Source: Sinorhizobium psoraleae (GTDB taxonomy: Bacteria > Pseudomonadota > Alphaproteobacteria > Rhizobiales > Rhizobiaceae). Taken from it: a stretch of DNA of 64,000 nt. Positions 80-12,435 of the stretch are shown here, one piece after another. Location of the stretch: assembly GCF_013283645.1 (NCBI RefSeq), contig NZ_JABEKV010000003.1:434001-498000 (forward strand). The letters run 5' to 3'. The number at the start of each line of letters is the position of its first letter. Position 1 is the stretch's first letter. A program made the translations under genes and the position numbers. The notes beneath the pieces are model-generated. The model saw nothing but the letters and a program-made list of their open reading frames with translations. It ran no database searches and had not been told where the DNA came from.

Positions 80-514
80 ATGCAACGAAGCCGCATGCTG
101 GAGAAGGGCTCTGACGCGCTGTTGGAATTATGTGATCGGCTGGAGGCAATCGCCGACGCCTTGCCCAACGCAATCAATGTAACGCGCTACGAGCAGATCG
201 CGGATACGCTTGTGCCGACGCTTGGCAGCCTGCACGAGCTGGAGGAACAAGTCCTCTTTTCTCAACTTCTCGCGCGAACGGATGGCCGAGACGTGACGGC
301 GCTGATCGAACGTCTTCGCGAAGAGCATCAGCACGACGAGAGAGCTGCGGCCGATGTCGCTGAAGTGCTCCGCGAGCTCCTTCACGGTCGCTGCCGGCTT
401 AGCTGGGACGCGATCGGCTATATGCTGCGCGCGCTCTTCGAGAGCCTCCGCCGCCACGTCGCGACCGAGCGCCTGCTGCTTTCCGAGAGCCGTCAGGGTG
501 CCTGCCATGCGTGA
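80..514 (+). CDS. Hemerythrin HHE-domain protein
   Basis: A 144-residue soluble, helical protein. The pattern is that of a hemerythrin-like (HHE) cation-binding domain: a His in LHELEEQ near residue 52, an EEHQHDE segment near residue 84, and a C-terminal HVATERLLL segment whose His-x-x-x-Glu is the classical metal-ligand arrangement. Such proteins hold a di-iron site and bind oxygen or nitric oxide, and in rhizobia they are common next to denitrification genes. Its stop overlaps the start of nnrU by 8 bases, so the two are probably translationally coupled. This supports a role in NO or nitrosative-stress handling, which is inference. The start at 80 follows an A-rich run rather than a strong ribosome site, so an upstream start outside the visible promoter region is possible. 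Confidence 0.75.
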   Translation: MQRSRMLEKGSDALLELCDRLEAIADALPNAINVTRYEQIADTLVPTLGSLHELEEQVLFSQLLARTDGRDVTALIERLREEHQHDERAAADVAEVLRELLHGRCRLSWDAIGYMLRALFESLRRHVATERLLLSESRQGACHA

Positions 515-1199
515 ATTTTTGCTGGCCTTCGCGGTCTTTCTTGCGCTGCACATGGTGCCCGCCATGCCGAAACTTCGCGAGCGGCTCATTCAGCGGCTGG
601 GCCGAAAGAGTTATTTCGCCGGCTATTCGCTGCTGTCGATCGTAGCGCTCGTCTGGGTCTTCCACGCAGCTCTTACATTGGATTTCATACCGCTCTGGGA
701 CCCGGGGCCGTGGCAGGCCTGGGTCACGTTCGTGCTCGCACCCGTCGGCATCTTCCTCGTTCTTGCGGGCCTCTTCAGCGAGAACCCGCTTTCGATTTCG
801 ATCTTTCAGGGTACCGGCGGGACGGGCGCCATCGTCGGCATCACCCGCCATCCGGTGCTCTGGGGGTTCCTCCTCTGGGCGGCTGGACACGTCGTTCCGA
901 ACGGCGATCTTCGCTCGCTCGTGCTCTTCGGCGGCTTCGCGCTTTTTGCAGCGGGCGGTTTCCTGATGGTCGAGCGGCGCGCGCGCCGCCGCATTGGCGA
1001 TGAATGGCCGAAGGTTGCCGCCGGCACATCGATCTTGCCCTTCGCCGCCATTCTCGGCGGCCGCGCCCGCTTCCGCCTGGATCCGGTCCTGGTGCTCTCG
1101 GCCTTTGCCACGGGCGCAATCACGCTCTGGCTGCTTGCCGGCGGCCACTACGCAATCTTCGGTGCCGATCCGCTGCTGCAAGCCTTCCTGTTGCTTTGA
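507..1199 (+). CDS. nnrU: NnrU family membrane protein
   Basis: A 230-residue integral membrane protein with about six hydrophobic segments. It matches the NnrU family: an N-terminal REFLLAFAVFLALHMVPAMP segment, RLIQRLGRKSYFAGYSLLS, and a central GITRHPVLWGFLLWAAGHVVPNGD motif with conserved His residues. NnrU is known as a gene needed with nitric oxide reduction in denitrifying alphaproteobacteria and is controlled there by NnrR. Its biochemical role is not established. I start it at the ATG at 507, where the protein begins with the family N-terminus; an in-frame ATG at 354 would add unrelated sequence read inside the previous gene. Its neighbours (hemerythrin upstream, anaerobic quinone genes downstream) fit a denitrification setting. 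No nirK or nor genes are inside the window. Confidence 0.85.
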   Translation: MREFLLAFAVFLALHMVPAMPKLRERLIQRLGRKSYFAGYSLLSIVALVWVFHAALTLDFIPLWDPGPWQAWVTFVLAPVGIFLVLAGLFSENPLSISIFQGTGGTGAIVGITRHPVLWGFLLWAAGHVVPNGDLRSLVLFGGFALFAAGGFLMVERRARRRIGDEWPKVAAGTSILPFAAILGGRARFRLDPVLVLSAFATGAITLWLLAGGHYAIFGADPLLQAFLLL

Positions 1200-1232: not shown

Positions 1233-1808
1233 TTACCCCTGCCAGGCTTCTGCCATCGGCGCGATCGGCAGCGCCAAGAGATCGATGGCGCGCGCGGCGA
1301 GATGGTCGACGATCGCCTCGACGCTTGCCGGACGATGGTAAAATCCCGGCACCGGCGGCATGACGATCGCGCCCATTTCGGTAACGGCACACATGTTGCG
1401 CAGATGCCCAAGATGGAGCGGCGTTTCGCGCGTCATCAATACGAGCCGCCGGCGCTCCTTCAGATGCACATCGGCGGCTCTGACCAGAAGATTGTCGGCA
1501 AGTCCATTGGCGATCGCCGCGAGCGTGCGCATCGAACACGGTGAGACGATCATGCCGGCAGTTGGGAAGGATCCGCTGGCGATCGCCGCGCCGATGTCGT
1601 CGTGCTCGTAGATGCGGTCGGCCTTTTCGAACAAGCGCAACAGTGCGTCCGGTCCAACTTCGTGGCTCAATGTCCTGTGCGCCGCCGGCGACATGACCAG
1701 ATGCATCTCGACTTCGTCGATCCACGCAAGCCGCTCGGCGATGCGCAGCGGGATCGCGGCTCCGGAAGCGCCGGTTACACCAACAACTATCCTCAACCTT
1801 CCAGTCAT
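1233..1808 (-). CDS. ubiX: Flavin prenyltransferase UbiX
   Basis: A 191-residue flavoprotein of the UbiX/Pad1 family. UbiX attaches a dimethylallyl group to reduced FMN to make the prenylated FMN cofactor used by UbiD. The Rossmann-like start IVVGVTGASGAAIPLRI, the SPCSMRTLAAIANGLADNLLVRAADV region and the RRRLVLMTRETPLHLGHLRNM segment are family hallmarks. The start at 1808 overlaps the ubiD stop in an ATGA, so the two genes are co-transcribed and coupled on the minus strand. UbiX-UbiD pairs also serve phenolic-acid decarboxylases, but the adjoining ubiTUV genes favour ubiquinone synthesis here. Confidence 0.92.
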   Translation of the reverse strand: MTGRLRIVVGVTGASGAAIPLRIAERLAWIDEVEMHLVMSPAAHRTLSHEVGPDALLRLFEKADRIYEHDDIGAAIASGSFPTAGMIVSPCSMRTLAAIANGLADNLLVRAADVHLKERRRLVLMTRETPLHLGHLRNMCAVTEMGAIVMPPVPGFYHRPASVEAIVDHLAARAIDLLALPIAPMAEAWQG

Positions 1809-3313
1809 CGGCTGTCTCCCAGACCCAGCTCGGCCCACATCCGATCGACATCGGCCATCACCTCTGGTGACATGTCGAGCACCCTCCCCCATTCGCGGTC
1901 GGTCTCCGCGCCGATCTTGTTGGTCGCATCGAGCCCGAGCTTGCCACCGAGGCCGGAGCGCGGTGACGCGAAATCGAGATAGTCGATCGGCGTGTCGGCG
2001 ATGATCGTGACGTCGCGGCTCGCGTCGAAGCGCGTGGAAAGCGCCCAGATAACATCCGACCAGTTGCGCACGTTGATGTCCGGGTCTACGACGATGATGA
2101 GCTTCACGTAGCTGAACTGCGGCAGCATCGACCAGAGCCCCATCATCAACCGCTTCGCCTGGCCCGGGTAACGCTTGTCGATCGCCACGACCATCGCCCG
2201 GTAGGAACAGGCCTCCGGCGGCAGCCACAAATCGACGATCTCCGGATACTGCTTCTTCACCAGCGGCACGAACAGAACGTTCATCGCTTCACCGAGACGC
2301 GACGGCTCGTCGGGCGGCCGGCCGGTATAGGTAGAGAGATAAATCGGATTCCGACGCATCGTGATCGCCGAGAGAGTCATGACCGGGAAGCGATCGACGG
2401 AATTGTAGTAACCGGTATGGTCGCCGTAGGGCCCCTCGTCGGCCGTCTCGGCTGCGGACACGGTGCCTTCGAGCACGATCTCCGCATTCGCCGGCACCGG
2501 CAACGGCACCGTGCGGCCTGTTACAACCGGTGTTCGACGCCGGCGAATGAGCCCTGAAAAATTGAGTTCGCTCAGCCCGTCCGGCAATGGCATCACCGAC
2601 GCGAGGATAGTGGCCGGATCCGCTCCGATCGCGACCGCGACCGGCATGTCCCGGCCCTGTCTCTGCCAGAGGCGATGATGCCGCGCGCCACCGCGGTGGG
2701 GGAGCCAGCGAACGATCGCCCGGTCTCGACCCAGAACCTGCATGCGATAGATGCCGACGTTGATGTCGGTCGGATCGTCAGGCGCCATGGTGATGACCAG
2801 CGGCCAGGTGATGAGCGGTGCCGGCTCGCCCGGCCAGCACCACTGGATCGGCAGGCTCCCGAGATCGATCTCCGGACCGCTCCAGACGATCTCCTGGCAC
2901 GGCGCCCGGCTATGATGCTTCGGCCGCATCGAGAGTGCGGACCGCAGCATCGGCAGTTTCTCCCAGGCGTCACGCAGCGATGCCGGCGCGCGGGGATCAC
3001 GCAGCTCCGCGAGCTCCTCGGCAAAGAAAGGCAATCCGCCCGGCTCCAGGCCGAAGCCGCGCTCGATCCGCGCTTGCGCGCCGAACAGGTTGGCGAGCAG
3101 GGGAATCTCGTGCAGGCGCCCGGAAGCATCGACCGGCTTTTCGAACAACAAGGCTGGCCCGCCCGACGCAAGCACGCGCCTGTGGATCTCGGTCACTTCG
3201 TGGACGAGCGAAACGGGCCGCGAAATCCGCTTCAGCTCGCCATCGCGCTCAAGCGCCGAAGCAAAATCCTGAAGCGAGGCGAAGTGCTGAGGAGAGCGGA
3301 AGCCTTTGTTCAT
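1805..3313 (-). CDS. ubiD: UbiD family prenyl-FMN decarboxylase
   Basis: A 502-residue protein of the UbiD family, close to the usual length of about 490. UbiD removes the carboxyl group from 3-polyprenyl-4-hydroxybenzoate in ubiquinone synthesis, using prenyl-FMN supplied by UbiX. Visible motifs are NVGIYRMQVLGRDR near residue 185, the RWLPHRGGARHH stretch just after it, and EGTVSAAETADEGPYGDHTGYY near residue 290, which carries acidic residues of the active-site region. It lies back to back with ubiT, with a 108-base intergenic region that holds an FNR/FixK-like box, and overlaps ubiX by four bases. A paralogous UbiD decarboxylase acting on other aromatic acids is the alternative; context makes this less likely. 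Confidence 0.88.
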   Translation of the reverse strand: MNKGFRSPQHFASLQDFASALERDGELKRISRPVSLVHEVTEIHRRVLASGGPALLFEKPVDASGRLHEIPLLANLFGAQARIERGFGLEPGGLPFFAEELAELRDPRAPASLRDAWEKLPMLRSALSMRPKHHSRAPCQEIVWSGPEIDLGSLPIQWCWPGEPAPLITWPLVITMAPDDPTDINVGIYRMQVLGRDRAIVRWLPHRGGARHHRLWQRQGRDMPVAVAIGADPATILASVMPLPDGLSELNFSGLIRRRRTPVVTGRTVPLPVPANAEIVLEGTVSAAETADEGPYGDHTGYYNSVDRFPVMTLSAITMRRNPIYLSTYTGRPPDEPSRLGEAMNVLFVPLVKKQYPEIVDLWLPPEACSYRAMVVAIDKRYPGQAKRLMMGLWSMLPQFSYVKLIIVVDPDINVRNWSDVIWALSTRFDASRDVTIIADTPIDYLDFASPRSGLGGKLGLDATNKIGAETDREWGRVLDMSPEVMADVDRMWAELGLGDSR

Positions 3314-3348
3314 GCCCGCTTCTTTGTGCTCGTGATTTCCGCCTGTCT

Positions 3349-3362
3349 TTGATGTGGGACAA
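3349..3362. promoter_or_regulatory. FNR/FixK/NnrR-type box between ubiD and ubiT
   Basis: The sequence TTGATGTGGGACAA keeps the outer TTG-N8-CAA core of CRP/FNR-family sites (FNR and FixK consensus TTGAT-N4-ATCAA) and matches it at nine of ten defined bases. It lies in the divergent region, 36 bases before the ubiD start and 59 bases before the ubiT start. It could therefore switch both quinone operons on under low oxygen or NO. Which regulator binds cannot be told from the sequence. Confidence 0.5.
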
Positions 3363-3421
3363 ACACAAGGAACGGCTGCCGGCTAAACATTGGGAGAACA
3401 TTCACACTGCACAGGCCCCAT

Positions 3422-3928
3422 ATGACCGTTTCCTCCGCGATGGCCGTTCCGCTCCGGCTCATCCCCATTCCCGCCATCGAGCGAGCGACAAGGCTCGTTT
3501 TTTCTCACGTCATGGCGCGCCATCCGGGCCTCTTCGACCGGTTGGGGGATTACGCCGACAAACGATATGGCTTCATCCCGTCCGACCTGCCGGTCGGCTT
3601 CCTGGTCGAACCTGCGAATGCCCGCATATCCGTGCACCGCAAGCCCGATCTGCCACCGACCGACGCTGCGGTCACAGGCGGCTTCGTCCTCCTGCTCGGG
3701 CTGCTCGAAGGTCGCCTCGATGGTGATGCGGTCTTCTTCTCGCGCGACCTGACGGTCATCGGCGACATGGAAGCCATGCTGGCGCTGCGCAATGCGCTCG
3801 ACGACTGCAACATCGACCTGCCCTCAGACATCGGCAGCCTGGCGGGGCCTCTCGCACCGCTGGTGCGGCGCGCCGCCTCGGAAATTCGTAGCCGCGTCCT
3901 GCCCCGGGAGGCCGGCCAATGGAACTGA
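3422..3928 (+). CDS. ubiT: UbiT-like SCP2-domain accessory factor
   Basis: A 168-residue protein with an SCP2 sterol-carrier-like fold. The N-terminal half includes ERATRLVFSHVMARHPGLFDRLG, and the middle includes RISVHRKPDLPPTDAAVTGGFVLLLGLLEGRLDGDAVFFSRDLTVIGDMEAMLALRNALDD, the lipid-binding SCP2 signature ending in a region typical of UbiT/YhbT. UbiT is an accessory protein of oxygen-independent ubiquinone synthesis, thought to handle the prenylated intermediates. It overlaps ubiU by 10 bases and starts the plus-strand operon ubiT-ubiU-ubiV. An FNR-like box lies about 60 bases upstream. Assignment rests on the domain pattern plus the immediate ubiU and ubiV neighbours. Confidence 0.85.
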   Translation: MTVSSAMAVPLRLIPIPAIERATRLVFSHVMARHPGLFDRLGDYADKRYGFIPSDLPVGFLVEPANARISVHRKPDLPPTDAAVTGGFVLLLGLLEGRLDGDAVFFSRDLTVIGDMEAMLALRNALDDCNIDLPSDIGSLAGPLAPLVRRAASEIRSRVLPREAGQWN

Positions 3929-4896
3929 TCTGCCCCGCCGGAACGCCGGCTGCCTTCCGCGAGGCCGTCGATGCCGGAGCCGATGCCGTCTATTGCGGTT
4001 TTCGCGACGAGACCAATGCCCGCAATTTCCCGGGACTGAACTTTTCCCGCGACGAGCTCAAGGCGGCGATCGCCTATGCCCGTCAGCACGGAGCGATGAC
4101 CTTCGTCGCCATCAACACCTTCATGCGCGCCGGTCGCGAAAAGCTTTGGCACGAGGCGGTGGACGATGCCGTGCGCCTTGGCGCCGACGTGGTCATCCTC
4201 GCGGATTTCGGCCTGATGGCCTATACCGCCGAATGCTACCCCGAGCAGCGCTTGCACGTGTCGGTCCAGGCCTCCGCCGCCAATGCGGACGCCGTCAATT
4301 TCCTGGTCGAGACGTTCCGGGCAAAACGTGTCGTGCTGCCGCGCATTCTCACCATCCCCGACATCGCCCGCCTTGCAAAACAGATCCGATGCGAGATCGA
4401 GGTCTTCGTCTTCGGTGGGCTCTGCGTGATGGCGGAGGGGCGCTGCTCGCTCTCCTCCTACGCGACCGGCAAGTCGCCGAACATGAATGGTGTCTGTTCC
4501 CCAGCGAGCCATGTGCGCTACCGCGAGGATGGCCGCGAACTCGTCTCGGAACTCGGCGACTACACGATCAATCGCTTTCCCGCCGGCGAGGCAGCCGGCT
4601 ATCCGACACTCTGCAAGGGGCGCTTCAACGTTGCCGACGAGCGCGGATACGCTTTCGAAGACCCCGTTTCGCTTGATGTCATGGACCACGTCGACCTGTT
4701 GCGCGAGGCTGGCGTCAGCGCGTTGAAGATCGAAGGACGCCAGCGCGGCAAGGCCTATGTCGCGGAGGTCGTCTCGGTGATGCGCCGCGCTCTCGCCGCG
4801 AATGCCGCCGAGCGGCCCGCCCTCATCTCGCGGCTACGGCTCCTGAGCGAAGGTCAGCGGACGACATCCGGTGCCTATGAAAAGCGTTGGAGGTAG
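3919..4896 (+). CDS. ubiU: UbiU, oxygen-independent quinone hydroxylase subunit (U32 family)
   Basis: A 325-residue protein of the U32 peptidase-like family, with the family start MELICPAGTPAAFREAVDAGADAVYCG. Four cysteines at residues 169, 176, 193 and 232 stand at the positions described for the four ligands of the 4Fe-4S cluster of Escherichia coli UbiU. With UbiV it forms a heterodimer that hydroxylates the ubiquinone ring without O2; prephenate is the reported oxygen source. Position between ubiT and ubiV and a 3-base gap to ubiV support one operon. The alternative, a collagenase-like U32 protease such as PrtC/RlhA, is less likely because of the cysteine pattern, length and neighbours. 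Confidence 0.93.
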   Translation: MELICPAGTPAAFREAVDAGADAVYCGFRDETNARNFPGLNFSRDELKAAIAYARQHGAMTFVAINTFMRAGREKLWHEAVDDAVRLGADVVILADFGLMAYTAECYPEQRLHVSVQASAANADAVNFLVETFRAKRVVLPRILTIPDIARLAKQIRCEIEVFVFGGLCVMAEGRCSLSSYATGKSPNMNGVCSPASHVRYREDGRELVSELGDYTINRFPAGEAAGYPTLCKGRFNVADERGYAFEDPVSLDVMDHVDLLREAGVSALKIEGRQRGKAYVAEVVSVMRRALAANAAERPALISRLRLLSEGQRTTSGAYEKRWR

Positions 4897-4899
4897 ATC

Positions 4900-5820
4900 A
4901 TGACTGGCGCAACGCTTCCAAGCCTTAGCCTCGGCCCGGTCCTCTACTTGTGGGAAGGACCCAAATGGCGCGATTTCTATTTCCGTATCGCCGACGAAGC
5001 GCCGGTCGCGCATGTCGTCATCGGCGAGACGGTCTGCTCGAAACGGCTGCATTTCATCGAGCCGCATGTCGGCGAAGTGGTCGAGCGGCTGGAGCGCGCG
5101 GGCAAGAGCGTCAGCCTTGCCTCGCTGGCACTCGTCACGCTCGAACGCGAGGCCCAAGTCGTGCGGGCGCTGGTGCGCGACAGCACGCATCCGATCGAGG
5201 CTAATGACCTGTCGGCGCTCGGCCTGCTCGCCGGCAAGCCGCACTCCGTCGGCCCGTTGATCAACGTCTATAACGGCGCCACCGCGCGGCTGCTCGCCTC
5301 GCGCGGTGCGACGAGCATCTGCCTGCCACCCGAACTGCCGATGGCGTCCGTTCGCGATATCGTTCGCGATGCTCCCGGCGTGTCGTTCGAGATATTCGCG
5401 TTCGGGCGCGTGCCGCTCGCGATCTCGGCCCGCTGCGCGCACGCCCGGTCCAAAGGACTGGTCAAGGACAATTGTCAGTTCATCTGCGGCGACGACCCGG
5501 ATGGATTGGTGGTCGAAACACTCGACCGCCAGCCCTTTCTCGCCCTGAACGGTGTACAGACCGTGTCGCACACATGCCAGGCACTGATCCAGGAACTGCC
5601 GGAATTGGCCGCGGCCGGCATTTCGCGGATCCGGCTTTCGCCTCAAGACTGCGACATGGTCGCGGTCGCCCGGGTCTTCGACGATGCGATCGCCGGCAGG
5701 TCTCTCCCCGCCGATGCCATCGCCCGTCTTCAAAATGCCTATGCCGGCGCACGGTTTTCGAACGGCTTCCATTACGGCCAGCAAGGCGCCGCCTGGATCG
5801 CAGACCACGCATCAACTTAG
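4900..5820 (+). CDS. ubiV: UbiV, oxygen-independent quinone hydroxylase subunit (U32 family)
   Basis: A 306-residue U32-family protein beginning SLGPVLYLWEGPKWRDFYFRIADEAPVAHVVIGETVCSKR. Cysteines at residues 46, 179, 192 and 196 reproduce the spacing of the four UbiV iron-sulfur ligands: one early cysteine, then CAHARSKG and DNCQFICG. It is the partner of UbiU in ring hydroxylation during anaerobic ubiquinone synthesis. The ATG at 4900 has a good GGAGG site seven bases upstream and follows the ubiU stop directly. The gene is followed by a palindromic repeat that begins at its stop codon and may act as the 3' end of the transcript or as an mRNA-stabilising hairpin. Confidence 0.92.
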   Translation: MTGATLPSLSLGPVLYLWEGPKWRDFYFRIADEAPVAHVVIGETVCSKRLHFIEPHVGEVVERLERAGKSVSLASLALVTLEREAQVVRALVRDSTHPIEANDLSALGLLAGKPHSVGPLINVYNGATARLLASRGATSICLPPELPMASVRDIVRDAPGVSFEIFAFGRVPLAISARCAHARSKGLVKDNCQFICGDDPDGLVVETLDRQPFLALNGVQTVSHTCQALIQELPELAAAGISRIRLSPQDCDMVAVARVFDDAIAGRSLPADAIARLQNAYAGARFSNGFHYGQQGAAWIADHAST

Positions 5821-5890: not shown

Positions 5891-6283
5891 ATGGCACATG
5901 AGTTCGATGTTCTCGGGAATGAGACCGCGGAAGACGAAAATCTCGCAACCGTCATCAGCCAGATCCGCCGGCTAATCGACGGCGCCTCGCTCGAATGCGG
6001 CTGCCGCGCACGCGTCGACGACTTGCTGCTTCGTTTCGAAAGTCTGACGGCCAGGCAACGCGAAAAGCGGATGCTCGACCAGGCCCGGCGCCAACGGCGA
6101 CGCATCGCGGTGATCATGGAACTTCTTCACGAACTCGACGAGATCGGTTATGACGACGCCGACCGAAGCGTGCTGGTGGAAGCGCGGCTGCTTTTCGATG
6201 ACATTGCAGAGGCCGCACGCCAGGGGGCTCGCCTGCTCGATGTCGCCTCCGCCTTGCCGAGATCGAAGGCGGGTGTGCGATGA
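5891..6283 (+). CDS. Small helical protein of unknown function beside ubiTUV
   Basis: A 130-residue hydrophilic protein I do not recognise. It is predicted by eye to be mostly alpha-helical, with a basic segment (QREKRMLDQARRQRRRIAV, near residue 60) between two acidic ends. The only cysteines form a CGC motif near residue 37, in ASLECGCRARVDDLL. No signal peptide or membrane segment is visible. A GGAG ribosome site seven bases before the ATG supports the start. It follows ubiV in the same direction after a 70-base gap filled by a palindromic repeat, so it may belong to the anaerobic quinone or nitrate-respiration transcript. Codon use is like that of its neighbours. A function cannot be assigned. 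Confidence 0.7.
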   Translation: MAHEFDVLGNETAEDENLATVISQIRRLIDGASLECGCRARVDDLLLRFESLTARQREKRMLDQARRQRRRIAVIMELLHELDEIGYDDADRSVLVEARLLFDDIAEAARQGARLLDVASALPRSKAGVR

Positions 6284-6824: not shown

Positions 6825-7520
6825 TCAGAAGTTGCTGGCGTGGAGCTCCCTCATCGCCTTCCTGAGTTCGTCGATCGGGGTCAAGCTGCTGGTGCTTTGG
6901 CCTTCCAGTTCCGGCGGCATCTTCCAGCCCGGATCGATGCCTTCCATGTTCGGCAGCTCGTGCGCGATGCCCTTGTGGCAATCGATGCAGGTTGCCCGGC
7001 CGGGAAGCAGATAGCGAGTATGGATCGCCGCCGCCCGTTGCGTCTGCTTCTGCAGATCCATGGCGATAGACGAATGGCAGTTGCGGCATTCGAGACTGTC
7101 GTTTGCCTTCAGCCGCGCCCATTCATGCTGCGCGAGCTCCAGCCGGTGCTCGAGGAATTTCGGCCGGGTGTTGATCGTTCCGAAGATCTTGCCCCAGACC
7201 TCCTTCGACGCCTGCATCTTGCGGGCGATCTTGTCCGTCCAGTCATGGGGCACGTGGCAGTCCGGACAGGTGGCCCTGACGCCGGAGCGGTTGGAGAAAT
7301 GGATCGTCCGCGTCAGCTCCTGATAGACGTTGTCGCGCATCTCGTGGCAGGAGGTGCAGAAGGTCTCGGTGTTGGTAAGCTCGAGCGCGGTGTTGAAGGC
7401 GCCCCAGAATATCACACCGCCGACGAAGCCGCCAAGTGTCAGAAAGCCGAGGCTCAGTGTTCCTGCCGGCGTGCTGACGAGGTGCCACGCCCAGAGGACG
7501 AGTTTCCGGATCCATCCCAT
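6825..7520 (-). CDS. napC: Tetraheme cytochrome c NapC
   Basis: A 231-residue NapC/NirT-family quinol dehydrogenase. One N-terminal membrane anchor (about residues 20-45) is followed by a periplasmic domain with four CXXCH heme sites at residues 55-59, 85-89, 145-149 and 178-182. It takes electrons from ubiquinol and passes them to NapB and then NapA in nitrate reduction. It is the last gene of napEFDABC and starts four bases after the napB stop. Length and heme spacing are standard for the family. Confidence 0.96.
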
Positions 7521-7524
7521 GGCG

Positions 7525-7989
7525 TCACTCGCTTCCCGCCGGCTTGACGCCCAGCTCGCTCATGTCCTTGAAAGTGTTATCGACGAGCGGCCTGACATCG
7601 GCCTGGGGCACGTGGCAGGCGGTGCAGAAATAGCGCCGCGGCGACACGTCCGCGAGCATCTGCCCATCCCGCGTCAGATAATGGGTGACGCTGATCATCG
7701 GAGCCCCGGAATCCTGAGTGAATTCACGCTTGTGGCAGGAGAGGCAGCGATTGGTGTTGACCGACAGCTGATAGCCTTCGATCGAATGCGGGATCACCGG
7801 CGGCTGATCGGGATACGCCCGCATCTTGCGGACGTCGTCGACCACCCATTTCGGTATCGGTTCGGCTCCCGGTTCGTCCATCGATTGCGGCGGCCCGGAA
7901 AGTTCCGGCACCATCTGGGCGATGGCCGCGGTGCTCACGAACAGCACCGCAAGCAGCGCTCCGAGCATCCATGCTGGGCTTCTCATCAT
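7525..7989 (-). CDS. napB: Periplasmic nitrate reductase diheme subunit NapB
   Basis: A 154-residue exported diheme cytochrome c. A signal peptide covers about residues 1-25 (hydrophobic [16 protein letters not shown], cleavage after an AIA-type site). The heme sites are CLSCH at 82-86 and CTACH at 122-126. It transfers electrons from NapC to the catalytic subunit NapA in the periplasm. The start overlaps the napA stop (ATGATGA arrangement), and either of two adjacent ATG codons could be used. Confidence 0.95.
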
Positions 7990-10490
7990 GCGGCAGAGAC
8001 GATCTTGACTGCGCATTTCTTGAAATCCGTCTGTTTGGAGATGGGATCGGTAGCGTCCAGCGTTACCTTGTTGATGAGCTTGCTGGCGTCGAACCACGGA
8101 ACGAAGATCACGCCGGGAGGCATGCGGTTGCGGCCGCGTGTCTCGACGCGGGCACGGATTTCGCCGCGCCGGGAAACGATCCTGACCTCGCCACCCTGGT
8201 TGAGGCCGCGCTTGCGGGCATCGTCCGCGTTCACGAAGCAAACCGCGCCGGGGAAGGCCCGATAGAGCTCCGGCACCCGCATCGTCATCGATCCAGAATG
8301 CCAGTGTTCGAGCACGCGACCGGTAACCAGCCAGATATCGTATTCGTCATCGGGCTCTTCGGCCGGAGGCTCGTAGGGAACGGCAAGGATCACCGCCCTG
8401 CCGTCCGGGCGGCCGTAGAACTTCACGCCCTCGCCCGGCTTCACATAGGGGTCATAGCCTTCCCGGTAGCGCCAAAGCGTCTCCTTCCCGTCGACGACGG
8501 GCCAGCGCAGGCCGCGCTCCTCGTGGTAGCGGTCATAAGGGGCGAGGTCATGCCCATGCCCGCGCCCGAAGGTGGCATATTCCTCGAAAAGGCCCTTCTG
8601 GATATAGAAGCCGAAGGCCTCCGCCTCGTTGTTGGCATAGTCGCCGTTGACCTCGCTTAAGGGGAAGCGATCCACCGCACCATTCTTGAACAGGACGTCG
8701 TGCAGCGTCTTGCCGCGATAGGACGGATTGGCGTCAAGGATTTCCGCCGGCCAGACCTCGTCGGTCGTGAAGCGCTTGGAGAATTCGACCATCTGCCACA
8801 GGTCCGAACGCGCCTCGGCCGGCGCCTGGACGAGCTGGTGCCAGACATGGGTGCGGCGTTCGGCATTGCCATAGGCTCCTTCCTTCTCCACCCACATGGC
8901 GGCCGGCAGGATAAGGTCTGCGCTCATGGCGGTAATCGTCGGATAGACATCGGAAACGACGATGAAGTTGTCGGGGTTGCGGTAGCCCTGGTAAGTCTCG
9001 TTGCTGGTGTTGGGCGCCGCCTGGACGTTGTTGTTGACCTGCACCCAATAGAAATTGAGCTTGCCGTCCTTCAGCATGCGGTCCTGCTCGACGGCATGAT
9101 AGCCCGGTTTTTCCGGGATGATCCCGTGCGGTATCCGCCAGATCTCTTCGGCATGCTCGCGATGTTCCGGATTGGTGACGGTCATGTCGGCCGGCAGGCG
9201 ATGGGCAAAGGTGCCGACCTCGCGCGCGGTGCCGCAGGCGGATGGTTGCCCGGTCAGCGAGAACGGGCTGTTGCCCGGCTCCGAAATCTTCCCCGTCAAG
9301 AGATGGAGGTTGTAGACCATCTGGTTGACCCAGACGCCGCGCACATGCTGGTTGAACCCCATGGTCCAGAGCGACATTACCTTGCGCTTGGGGTCGGCAT
9401 AGAGTTCGGCCAGTTGTTCCAGGAAGGCTGCGTCGACGCCGGTGAGTTCAGCGGTCTTGTCGAGCGTGTATTCCGAAACGAATGTCTTGAACTCTTCGAA
9501 ATTGCTCGGCGTCATCTTGGCGGCATCCTTGGCATTCACCGCCTTGACCTCCAGGGGATTATCAGGCCTCAAGCCGTAGCCGATATCGGTCGCGCCGACC
9601 ATGAAGGTCGTGTGCTTCTCGACGAACTCCTGGTTGACGCGCCCGGTCTGGATGATGTGGTTGGCGATGTAGTTCAGGATCGCGAGGTCGGTGCCCGGCT
9701 TGAAGACGATCGGGATGTCGGCGAGGTCCATGCTGCGGTGGGTGAAGGTCGAGAGCACCGCGACCCGCACATGCGGATGGCCCAACCGCCTGTCTGCGAG
9801 CCGGGTCCAGAGTATCGGATGCATCTCCGCCATGTTGGAGCCCCAAAGCACGAAGGCGTCGGCGTGCTCGAAGTCGTCGTAGCACCCCATCGGCTCGTCC
9901 ATGCCGAAGGTGCGCATGAAGGCGTAGGCGGCCGATGCCATGCAATGGCGGGCATTGGGATCGAGGTTGTTGGAGCGGAAGCCGGCGCGCATCAGCTTCG
10001 TCGCCGCATAGCCCTCGAAGATCGTCCACTGCCCGGAGCCGAACATGCCGACAGCCGTCGGGCCCTTCTCCTTCAAGACCCTCTTCGCCTGCTCCGCCAT
10101 CACGTCAAAGGCTTCGTCCCAGCTCACCGGCTCGAACTCGCCGTCCTTGGCGTAGGCGCCGTTTCGCTTGCGCATGAGCGGTGTCTTCAACCGGTCGGCG
10201 CCGTACATGATCTTCGACAGGAAATAGCCCTTGATGCAGTTCAGGCCGCGATTGACCTCCGCCTGCATGTCGCCATGGGTGGCGACCACCTGCCCTTCCT
10301 TCACGCCCACCATCACGCCGCAACCGGTGCCGCAGAAGCGGCATGGCGCCTTCGACCACTTGATCTCCAGCGCGCTTACGCCACCGGGTACGGGTTGCGC
10401 GGCGGCGGGCAGCGCGATGCCCGCCGTTGCCGCCGCTATGCCGGCCGCGTGGGCCTTGAGGATGTCACGCCGCGTCAGTTCGTCGGTCAT
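7986..10490 (-). CDS. napA: Periplasmic nitrate reductase catalytic subunit NapA
   Basis: An 834-residue molybdopterin (bis-MGD) enzyme that reduces nitrate to nitrite in the periplasm. The N-terminus begins [17 protein letters not shown], a twin-arginine signal (RR at 7-8), which fits folded export. Cysteines 50, 53, 57 and 85 form the C-x2-C-x3-C-x27-C 4Fe-4S site, and Cys183 in ARHCMASA is the expected molybdenum ligand. Length matches the family (about 830). I start at 10490 because it gives the Tat signal; a longer reading frame to 10652 adds non-homologous sequence inside napD. It overlaps napD by 26 bases. Confidence 0.97.
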
Positions 10491-10764
10491 TGCCGATCGT
10501 CTCCTCTTTCTCGACATGCTCGAACACCATGTTGGCGGCGACCACGCCTTCGAGCGTGGAAATCCGCGACAGGCACTCGCCGAGCACGCCCGTACTCGTT
10601 CCTTCGATGACCACCACGATCTTGCCGCCCTGGTGGCCGTAAACCTCGACATTGTTCATTCGGGAAAGCGCCGCGAGGACCTGCTCCTCCATCGCCGGAA
10701 CGGCGACAATAACGGCGCTCGAGACATGATATTCGGCTGGTTTTTCCCTCGATCTTTCAGGCAT
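10465..10764 (-). CDS. napD: NapD chaperone for NapA export
   Basis: A 99-residue cytoplasmic protein of the NapD family, with a ferredoxin-like fold. [45 protein letters not shown] is the typical core. NapD binds the Tat signal peptide of NapA and delays export until cofactor insertion is complete. Its C-terminus overlaps the napA start by 26 bases, which would couple synthesis of chaperone and client. The start at 10764 lies eight bases inside the napF end and removes an unrelated Ala/Pro-rich extension. Confidence 0.92.
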
Positions 10765-11257
10765 GGGCGCCCTCCCGGTTCCGTGCGGCGACCTGGACGG
10801 CGCCGACCGGGCAGATGCCGACGCAGGCGCCGCAGCCGCTGCAGGCATTTTCGTTCACGATTGGCAGGAAAGGCCCGCCGGTGCGGGGCTGAAAGCGGAT
10901 CGCCTCCTCCGGACAACTGTCGCGGCAGGACTGGCAGGCGACGTTGTTCTTCGCCAGGCAATGATCGGCGATCGCCGCCACATGCGCAAAGCGCGTCACA
11001 TCCGCCGATTGAAAGACCGGCTCCGGACAGGCGCGCCGGCAATCACCGCAGAAGGTGCATTCGCCGACTGAAAAATCGAGCGACGGTCGGTCGGCGGCAA
11101 GGCTGATGATACGTGGTGGACATGCGTCGACGCAGCGGCCGCAACCGGTGCAGGCGGCGAGGCTCTCGAGCGTCACGCCCGGCGGACAGATCCGTTCGGG
11201 CTCGGATGCGCCGCGTCCGAACAGGAGGTTTCGTCTGGAGATCGTCGTAACCGCCAT
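10757..11257 (-). CDS. napF: NapF iron-sulfur protein
   Basis: A 166-residue ferredoxin-type protein with four cysteine clusters: CTGCGRCVDACPP, CTFCGDCRRACPE, CQSCRDSCPEE and CSGCGACVGICPVGAV. These would bind up to four 4Fe-4S clusters. The N-terminal TISRRNLLFGRG resembles a twin-arginine signal, as in other NapF proteins, although NapF acts on the cytoplasmic side in assembly or activation of NapA. It lies second in the operon, eight bases from napE. I start at the ATG at 11257 rather than an upstream TTG. Confidence 0.93.
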   Translation of the reverse strand: MAVTTISRRNLLFGRGASEPERICPPGVTLESLAACTGCGRCVDACPPRIISLAADRPSLDFSVGECTFCGDCRRACPEPVFQSADVTRFAHVAAIADHCLAKNNVACQSCRDSCPEEAIRFQPRTGGPFLPIVNENACSGCGACVGICPVGAVQVAARNREGAHA

Positions 11258-11265
11258 GACGCACC

Positions 11266-11460
11266 TCAATGCGGCGCCGGTGGCGGACCCGGCGGTCCGA
11301 AGACGATCTGAAACATCCAGACGATGAAGCCATAGCCGCCGACGACGGCGACGGCGAGCAGCGGCCAGATGCCGAAGGCCAGCACCAGAAAGGTCAGAAG
11401 TTCACGCCGCCGGGACTGCGGCCTTGGCGTTGTCATCTGCTGTGGAGATAGCTCTGACAC
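11266..11460 (-). CDS. napE: NapE small membrane protein
   Basis: A 64-residue protein with one central transmembrane helix (ELLTFLVLAFGIWPLLAVAVVGGYGFIVWMFQIVFGPPG) and a proline-rich tail. This is the NapE family, found at the head of nap operons; its role is not settled. It is the first gene of napEFDABC, and the promoter must lie in the AT-rich DNA at 11461-11660. Confidence 0.9.
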   Translation of the reverse strand: MSELSPQQMTTPRPQSRRRELLTFLVLAFGIWPLLAVAVVGGYGFIVWMFQIVFGPPGPPPAPH

Positions 11461-11761: not shown

Positions 11762-12208
11762 CTATTGCGCCAGCGCCGCGAATGCCGCGTCCAGGCGCTC
11801 CTGCGCCTTCTTCGGGTTCTTCGCCCCTCTCGCCGCGTCGAGGTTGGCCGGGTTCTCGCCGACCTGCACGACGCCGACCATGCCCATGCCGTAGTGCGGC
11901 GTGCACTTCACGCCATAGACGCCCGGAGTGGTGAACGTGACCTTGTAGTTCTCGTTGACCTTGCTCTTCAGCGCTTCGGCGCCGTCCGGCAGCATGCCCT
12001 TGATCGTCTCGACATTGTGGCCCTTGTCGGTCGGAACGAAGGTCACGGTATCGCCGGCGGCGACCTTCAGCGAAGCCGGTTCGAAGACCATCACGCCGTC
12101 CTTGCCCTTGTTGAGCATGTGCACTTCGAAATCTGCCGCAAGCGCGGGCGTGGTGGCCAGCATTGCCAGCGCGGCGAGGCCAAGGCTCTTCTTCATCATA
12201 GTCAGCAT
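11762..12208 (-). CDS. pazS: Pseudoazurin, periplasmic blue-copper protein
   Basis: A 148-residue exported cupredoxin. A signal peptide ([24 protein letters not shown]) is followed by the mature protein starting ADFEVHML. The copper ligands are visible: His in KGHNVET, then Cys, His and Met in [11 protein letters not shown]. Pseudoazurin carries electrons to copper nitrite reductase and other periplasmic denitrification enzymes. I start at 12208, where a GGAG site stands eight bases upstream. A perfect FNR/NnrR-like palindrome lies about 85 bases before the start codon. It is transcribed in the same direction as nap but has its own terminator hairpin. Confidence 0.95.
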
Positions 12209-12285
12209 TTCATCTTCTCCGTTGAACCGCCAAGCCCTTGCCTGGAGTTGTCTCCCCGGAAATAGGCCGACGCCAGCCTGCCGAC

Positions 12286-12301
12286 TTTGACGCGCGTCAA
12301 A
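12286..12301 (-). promoter_or_regulatory. FNR/FixK/NnrR-type palindrome upstream of pseudoazurin gene
   Basis: TTTGACGCGCGTCAAA is a perfect 16-bp palindrome with the TTGAC-N4-GTCAA layout of CRP/FNR-family sites. It is centred about 85 bases upstream of the pseudoazurin ATG, which would place it near -41.5 for a transcript with a 5' leader of about 45 bases. The inner GAC/GTC rather than GAT/ATC fits an NNR/NnrR-type variant. Confidence 0.6.
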
Positions 12302-12435
12302 CAACGCGAAAGATGATGGTCGACCGCCTCTCCGCTCATGCATACGAACTCGACCGTGATTTCCACGTCATCGCGCCGGCCTTCCGACTCCCGCCGCCGA
12401 AGACCGTTGACAGGTTACGTCTATCGGATTAAGAC

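Follow-up and report, generated by a model that had tools for sequence, protein, structure and literature searches.

By what route could a denitrifying rhizobium make ubiquinone once oxygen is gone, when nitrate reduction and the bc1 chain of such bacteria still need it? We addressed this question at a locus of Sinorhizobium psoraleae that lies in a 64,000-nt stretch of contig NZ_JABEKV010000003.1 (positions 434,001 to 498,000; hereafter the window). Five genes stand across positions 1233-5820 of the window, ubiX and ubiD on the minus strand and ubiT, ubiU and ubiV on the plus strand, arranged as two divergent operons with 108 bp between the start of ubiD and that of ubiT. Our reading, to which we give a probability of roughly 0.85, is that they form an oxygen-independent ubiquinone cassette of Sinorhizobium kept with denitrification genes, that a single regulatory box serves both operons and that UbiD and UbiX work in the anaerobic route. 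The five genes are as follows.

1233..1808, minus strand: ubiX, flavin prenyltransferase (NF004685, 251 bits versus a UbiX subfamily cut-off of 188; 50% identity to E. coli UbiX)
1805..3313, minus strand: ubiD, polyprenyl-4-hydroxybenzoate decarboxylase (assigned by subfamily model, Pfam domains and identity to E. coli UbiD)
3422..3928, plus strand: ubiT, SCP2-domain accessory factor (equivalog NF047962, 63.9 versus 46.9 bits; adjoins ubiUV, with a 10-nt overlap with ubiU)
3919..4896, plus strand: ubiU, U32-family subunit of the oxygen-independent hydroxylase (equivalog, 500 versus 440 bits; C169, C176, C193, C232)
4900..5820, plus strand: ubiV, U32-family subunit of the oxygen-independent hydroxylase (equivalog, 360 versus 275 bits; C46, C179, C192, C196)

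NCBIfam and Pfam models support the identity of all five, which stand in the divergent layout proposed in an earlier interpretation of the same DNA (the sequence-only reading). The ATG of ubiX at 1808 overlaps the ubiD stop by 4 nt, as expected of an operon, and the codon at 1811 is no start. UbiX would make prenylated flavin mononucleotide (prFMN) for UbiD. The UbiD protein passed the UbiD subfamily model TIGR00148 (476 bits, cut-off 245), carries three UbiD Pfam domains (PF20695, PF01977 and PF20696) and shares 54% identity with E. coli UbiD over its length. Its best NCBIfam match was the 4-hydroxy-3-polyprenylbenzoate decarboxylase model PRK10922, the E. coli-type UbiD, whose equivalog cut-off was missed (602 versus 788 bits); we regard this model as narrow and not by itself defining for UbiD. 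The top sequence matches in the PDB were two entries named 3-octaprenyl-4-hydroxybenzoate carboxy-lyase (E 1e-171, 575 bits), with Fdc1 at 133, and ubiD encodes the only UbiD-family protein found in the genome. These data suggest that UbiD is a prFMN-dependent polyprenyl-hydroxybenzoate decarboxylase.

UbiU and UbiV are 48% and 33% identical to their E. coli counterparts, and no solved relative of UbiU was found by sequence at E 0.001. The iron-sulfur ligand positions of the E. coli proteins have been mapped (PMC6747719). UbiU C169, C176, C193 and C232 align with E. coli C169, C176, C193 and C232, while UbiV C46, C179, C192 and C196 align with E. coli C39, C180, C193 and C197 and present the CXnCX12CX3C ligand pattern. 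Taking the window together with 80 related loci (the best 80 of 587 confirmed UbiU matches in a contig search), the four UbiU cysteines and UbiV C179, C192 and C196 are kept in 81 of 81, and UbiV C46 in 80 of 81, the remaining one being a gap. The alignment and this conservation agree with the earlier statement that all eight cysteines are intact. Calling the gene set complete was an overstatement: UbiA, UbiE and UbiG, which are common to both ubiquinone pathways in E. coli (PMC6747719), are not among the genes of the locus, and the rest of the genome was not searched for them. Since these shared enzymes are not encoded here, the further claim that the replicon has its own means of making ubiquinone is unsupported.

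How might the two operons be switched on together? The following elements were recognized or predicted in the interval between them.

3349-3362, between the two operons: box TTGATGTGGGACAA of the FNR/FixK/NnrR family, an exact TTGN8CAA matching 8 of 10 positions of TTGATN4ATCAA
3345..3347, minus strand: GAC, which would be the -35 element for ubiD (-33 to -31 on the assumption of a start at 3314)
3314..3314, minus strand: predicted ubiD transcription start, which places the box centre at -41.5 and lies one base ahead of the ATG, thus nearly leaderless
3384..3390, plus strand: predicted -10 region of ubiT, TAAACAT, shifted by one base towards the box relative to the consensus (from conserved columns of 73 intergenic regions)

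Within the window alone, such boxes were not significantly enriched (15 TTGN8CAA versus 9.7 expected, with 7 of 100 shuffles reaching 15). Among relatives, TTGN8CAA was present in all 73 divergent ubiD-ubiT intergenic regions (72 divergent loci and the window, which are related to one another and not independent), whereas 200 Markov-shuffled sets that keep dinucleotide use had it in 3.0 of 73 on average and in 8 at most. The box reported between the operons is therefore a conserved one. At least 7 of the 10 positions of TTGATN4ATCAA were matched in 61 of the 73 (shuffles: mean 1.9, maximum 7). The inner bases of the box vary across the 73 regions and the outer TTG and CAA never do; the latter invariance follows from the way boxes were picked, and the information lies in the inner and flanking columns.

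In the class II arrangement, the box centre stands 41.5 bp upstream of the transcription start and the -10 element occupies -12 to -7; a -35 element reads TTGACA. Towards ubiT, the bases T, A and T at +29.5, +30.5 and +34.5 from the box centre are kept in 84, 93 and 75% of the 73 regions; they would be -12, -11 and -7 if the box centre were at -41.5, which fits class II geometry, and ubiT transcription is predicted to start near 3397, leaving a leader of about 25 nt. On the opposite side, GTC of the plus strand (GAC on the ubiD strand) is conserved at 91, 98 and 100% across the regions and falls where TTGACA has GAC.

The ubiD start codon keeps a nearly constant distance from this box. Between the ATG and the box centre there are 40.5-44.5 bp in 66 of the 73 loci (66 of the 68 with an in-frame ATG in reach) and exactly 41.5 bp in 40, measured in loci with two boxes from the one at 20-60 bp from ubiD; where a single in-frame ATG is possible, 45 of 46 loci fall in the same range. 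The distance is 42.5 bp in the window and 41.5 bp on S. meliloti pSymA. By contrast, the start of ubiT is not locked to the box (33 to 96 bp, with three loci above 500). A Shine-Dalgarno core precedes ubiD in only 15 of 68 loci (22%), compared with 16% at random places (median duplex energy -2.5 versus -2.7), whereas it precedes ubiX in 38 of 50, ubiT in 45 of 72, ubiU in 64 of 71 and ubiV in 46 of 64. Because ubiD has its ATG at the predicted start and little sign of a Shine-Dalgarno sequence before it, we predict that the ubiD mRNA is leaderless or nearly so. Leaderless starts are known in S. meliloti, where 171 have been mapped (PMC3616915). The three loci with ubiT more than 500 bp from the box (L011, L013 and L014) have intergenic regions of more than 560 bp and a separate TTGN8CAA by either gene, so that every promoter may need a box of its own.

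Is UbiD, then, part of the oxygen-free route only? We examined a sample of 199 genomes of the order Hyphomicrobiales, counting as a UbiD orthologue any match of 547 bits or more (the next match had 157). UbiD was found in 37 and UbiU in 55 of the 199. UbiU accompanies UbiD in all 37 cases, and the 144 genomes that lack UbiU are all without UbiD (exact p 1.7e-13 when stratified by family, over 13 informative families that have UbiU-positive and UbiU-negative members and some UbiD, with family counts copied by hand). The two genes are adjacent and divergent in 26 of the 37 genomes, far apart on one contig in seven (all of one genus) and on different contigs in four, so that linkage alone cannot explain the rule. 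Most genomes without UbiU evidently make aerobic ubiquinone without UbiD. In this order, UbiD and UbiX look dedicated to the oxygen-free route, and a natural reason would be that an aerobic decarboxylase made UbiD dispensable in air. As a separate observation, the UbiD matches of four genomes of one genus (G102, G146, G182 and G197) contain one in-frame stop each (TGA, TAG, TAG and TAA), which may reflect either run-on of the alignment or a true interruption; three of these genomes are single contigs, and ubiD lies about 263-293 kb from ubiU.

Candidates for such an aerobic decarboxylase were sought in the source genome. Coq4 has no match there and is thereby ruled out. The genome holds two UbiH/UbiF-family hydroxylases (L087 and L088) and an aromatic-hydroxylase-like flavin monooxygenase (L091), which is a candidate UbiN. 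Relatives of L091 (E 1e-40) occur in 179 of the 199 order genomes, namely in 36 of the 37 with UbiD and 143 of the 162 without. UbiN has been described from Rhodobacter capsulatus as a flavin monooxygenase responsible for aerobic decarboxylation; in this bacterium, ubiD-X and ubiU-V mutants are reported to fail only without oxygen, while UbiN is needed with oxygen (PMC10626278). R. capsulatus is a phototroph, and in the source strain a UbiN orthologue is only a candidate.

Which regulator would read the shared box? Similar boxes are read by FixK, FnrN and NnrR (PMC6710368; PMC4999443), and the genome contains 13 matches to HTH_Crp_2 above the Pfam cut-off. In Bradyrhizobium diazoefficiens, bll7628 (sterol-binding protein) and bll7627 (U32 family peptidase), which we read as UbiT and UbiU, have the box TTGTTCCCGCTCAA, and their expression is reported to be 10- and 15-fold lower in an nnrR mutant (PMC6710368). 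This dependence favours NnrR at the 3349-3362 box, with low oxygen acting upstream of NnrR. NnrR is thus the most likely regulator, and FixK or FnrN is possible. The sequence-only reading had proposed co-regulation by low oxygen or nitric oxide; the FNR-family box and the published work on relatives (Bradyrhizobium, Hyphomicrobium) support it in that general form, although sequence alone cannot tell which of the three proteins is involved.

Some results count against our reading or set its limits. In a sample of 241 genomes of the class, three of them of this order besides the source genome, UbiD is common without UbiU (UbiD in 113, UbiU in 27, both in 24). With both genes in just 24 of the 113 UbiD genomes, a class-wide rule that UbiD occurs only with UbiU is ruled out; the coupling is therefore order-wide only, and UbiD is not anaerobic by nature. 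Within the order, 18 of the 55 UbiU genomes have no UbiD orthologue, and UbiD is therefore not required wherever UbiTUV is present. The UbiN candidate L091 fails to reach the cut-off of the family it matches best (349 versus 524 bits), and its relatives in the class sample (35 of 113 genomes with UbiD, 23 of 128 without) show no substitution pattern, so that L091 is not upheld as a proven replacement of UbiD. Finally, a CRP/FNR-family regulator encoded near nirK, where nnrR could be expected, receives no NCBIfam equivalog, and NnrR is for this reason named only tentatively.

The class counts lend some weight to the view that UbiD and UbiX take part in ubiquinone synthesis whether or not oxygen is present, as in E. 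coli, where both routes are reported to use them (PMC6747719), and are mere neighbours of ubiTUV; the presence of one UbiD only in the genome points the same way. We consider this improbable, because no order genome lacking UbiU keeps UbiD, ubiD stands at the low-oxygen box too, and the R. capsulatus and Hyphomicrobium data, as published, agree with an anaerobic-only UbiD. A more serious competitor, albeit still an unlikely one, holds that only ubiT is served by the box, and that ubiD is transcribed with a normal leader or from a different promoter and owes its spacing to sequence kept for other reasons. A weak purine stretch does precede the ubiD ATG (AAAGAAG in the window), the ubiD -10 region is poor except for one conserved A (82%), the loci compared are not independent, and the sole box of locus L078 lies 567 bp from ubiD and 73 from ubiT. 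In addition, the box TTGACGCACGACAA of a Leisingera plasmid is much nearer the annotated ubiD start, about 24 bp from the box centre; judging from this plasmid, the one-box geometry of ubiD may not hold outside the order. What this view leaves unexplained is that it is the ubiD distance that is locked, in nearly all single-ATG loci, and the ubiT distance that is spread, that the three long intergenic regions have a TTGN8CAA for each gene, that Shine-Dalgarno cores are far rarer before ubiD than before the other four genes, and that the conserved GAC triplet stands at the expected -35 place. Least credible by a wide distance is the idea that the U32 proteins and UbiD serve another pathway, such as proteolysis, tRNA hydroxylation or aromatic acid decarboxylation. 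Both families do contain such members, but UbiU and UbiV score above their equivalog cut-offs and the TrhP model far below its own (161 versus 534), the nearest solved relatives of UbiD are the octaprenyl-hydroxybenzoate carboxy-lyases and not Fdc1, and ubiT is adjacent.

We thus prefer an oxygen-independent ubiquinone cassette under one shared box, which would work as follows. As oxygen runs low and nitrogen oxides are being respired, binding of a CRP/FNR-family regulator to the single box at 3349-3362 would drive both operons. With prFMN made by UbiX, UbiD would remove the C1 carboxyl group without oxygen, and UbiU-UbiV together with UbiT would hydroxylate the ring, likewise without oxygen; the remaining steps would fall to the shared enzymes UbiA, UbiE and UbiG, presumably encoded elsewhere. 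In the aerobic route, a flavin monooxygenase of the UbiN kind would probably decarboxylate and hydroxylate in one oxygen-using step.

The surroundings of the cassette agree with a role in nitrogen-oxide respiration. The neighbouring features are listed below.

80..514, plus strand: hemerythrin-domain protein (PF01814, 46.9 bits)
507..1199, plus strand: nnrU, convergent with ubiX (PF07298, 170 bits; same placing in 23 of the 80 relatives)
6825..11460, minus strand: napEFDABC, periplasmic nitrate reductase (NapC and NapA confirmed by family search)
11762..12343, minus strand: pseudoazurin, true start probably internal (TIGR02375, 190 bits versus 110; TTGACGCGCGTCAA at 12287-12300)
L136:1738-19234, contig C23, just left of the window: CRP/FNR-family regulator, FGE-domain protein, nirK, hemN and norE/C/B/Q/D-like genes

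Within 20 kb to the left of the window, nirK (568 versus 296 bits) and hemN (409 versus 325 bits) were identified, together with NorD-, NorQ-, NorB-, NorC- and NorE-like proteins and, in the place of nirV, an FGE-sulfatase-domain protein; the nor and nirV names were read from Pfam domains and gene order. With nirK, hemN and the nor genes on the left and napEFDABC and pseudoazurin on the right, the ubi cassette lies inside a denitrification island, through which the window cuts. The proposal that oxygen-independent ubiquinone genes stand beside respiratory nitrogen-oxide genes is strengthened by these leftward genes and the CRP/FNR-family regulator among them. The neighbours themselves were confirmed in part: NnrU, NapC, NapA and pseudoazurin were, whereas NapF was slightly (95.1 versus 102.2) and NapB well (133.5 versus 230) under the cut-off, and NapD and NapE are known only from translations of open reading frames. 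As far as an exact TTGN8CAA goes, a box shared with nap is ruled out, none occurring near napE; the nearest, at 12287, is upstream of pseudoazurin, and read-through from it into nap may occur. A strict pairing of the cassette with nap is also ruled out, as a NapA match was found in 9 of the 80 related loci within the DNA fetched (8 loci being shorter than 18 kb), and UbiU in 20 of the 34 order genomes with NapA versus 35 of the 165 without.

The window sits on a 1.137-Mb contig (C23) of a 7.43-Mb genome in 67 contigs. Its DNA is closest to 1.6-2.1-Mb plasmid records of Sinorhizobium terangae, S. chiapasense and S. mexicanum (87-88% over 8 kb); over 20-40 kb of the window, the S. chiapasense and S. 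mexicanum plasmids match again, as do 1.6-1.7-Mb S. meliloti records. The contig thus resembles a large plasmid-like replicon of the Sinorhizobium kind. Two further observations concern the window. A 130-aa protein without a family is encoded at 5891-6283, with relatives in 26 of the 80 loci, directly behind ubiV in 23. Perfect palindromes occur as four copies of TTGACAGCTGTCAA (52010, 53540, 53628 and 57894) and two of TTGTCCGCGGACAA (47729 and 47767), which may be operators of other regulators.

Is this arrangement peculiar to the strain? Of the best 80 of the 587 loci, 76 contain a UbiD match; in 72, ubiD and ubiT diverge within 900 bp of each other, ubiX adjoins ubiD on its strand in 66, and nnrU is convergent with ubiX in 23. 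The PLSDB records with a UbiU match at E 1e-80 number 169 and include S. meliloti pSymA. An Ensifer canadensis plasmid is likewise annotated with the five genes so arranged, accompanied as in the window by nnrU and a hemerythrin protein, and a 70-kb plasmid of Leisingera caerulea carries an annotated copy of the arrangement. The cassette is ordinary for this group. The copy on S. meliloti pSymA (CP140936.1, L133) has the same five genes in the same order and divergence, with the same GTCT-TTGN8CAA box, and stands beside hemN and norECBQD; however, it is on another replicon, its UbiU is 84% identical, no nap is annotated in the 37 kb examined, and a group II intron protein separates hemN from norD. 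Two types of Sinorhizobium cassette among the Sinorhizobium and Ensifer loci of L003-L080, one of S. terangae and E. sesbaniae (that of the window) and the other of S. medicae, S. kostiense and S. shofinae, are not sisters in a quickly built tree that used 73 of the 81 sequence sets (eight sets were left out for a missing or short protein). A single origin of all Sinorhizobium cassettes was marginally rejected (p-AU 0.041), which is too weak to claim transfer.

Much of the general scheme is already in print for relatives, including the denitrification- or NnrR-linked expression of their genes, the R. capsulatus genetics and the FNR control in E. coli. Hyphomicrobium denitrificans has the same gene set, ubiXDTUV (Hden_0564-0568), reported to be co-regulated with denitrification, and its authors suggest that UbiXD is replaced in air (PMC12423496); unlike in the window, the regulators studied there are SoxR and sHdrR. 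E. coli shares the enzymes, the ligands and FNR control of two divergent operons (PMC10470549). However, its ubiT diverges from ubiUV with two separate FNR sites, and its ubiD and ubiX are located elsewhere and serve both pathways. Loci of ubiTUV with FNR-type sites across Pseudomonadota have also been published (PMC11707229). The order-wide UbiD-UbiU rule, the one-box geometry and the leaderless ubiD were not found in the open-licence literature searched, which is no proof of absence.

What, then, decarboxylates without oxygen where UbiD is missing? The 18 order genomes that carry full ubiT, ubiU and ubiV and no UbiD orthologue (L092-L109) were searched with the Pfam UbiD models; 16 gave no UbiD-family match, and two (G025 and G082) a distant one. 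The same Pfam search found none in the class-sample genomes with UbiU and without UbiD (G230, G259 and G362), where of the UbiTUV proteins only UbiU was checked. No conserved extra gene is common to the ubiTUV surroundings of the 18 genomes, the widest clusters besides ubiTUV covering 7, 6 and 5 of the 18 loci. For the Hyphomicrobiales as a whole, we lean slightly towards a joint reading in which UbiD and UbiX are anaerobic specialists kept only with UbiTUV, mostly as a five-gene cassette that is also found on plasmids, with one box at -41.5 of both promoters and a leaderless ubiD, and in which the UbiTUV genomes without the UbiD family would have to use an undescribed oxygen-free decarboxylase. 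The authors of the UbiN work raised the gap of the missing UbiD for two phototroph genera, and Rhodomicrobium and Rhodovulum are reported by them to lack ubiD (PMC10626278).

In summary, because denitrifying rhizobia need ubiquinone without oxygen, the cassette may matter for the extent of their nitrogen-oxide respiration in soil and in nodules. The occurrence rule tells when to expect UbiD in genomes of the order, which is useful for annotation and for metabolic models. The 18 order genomes widen the gap raised by the UbiN authors, an open end that we rate above the locus itself, and the UbiTUV genomes in which no UbiD-family protein was found provide a list in which to seek the missing anaerobic decarboxylase.

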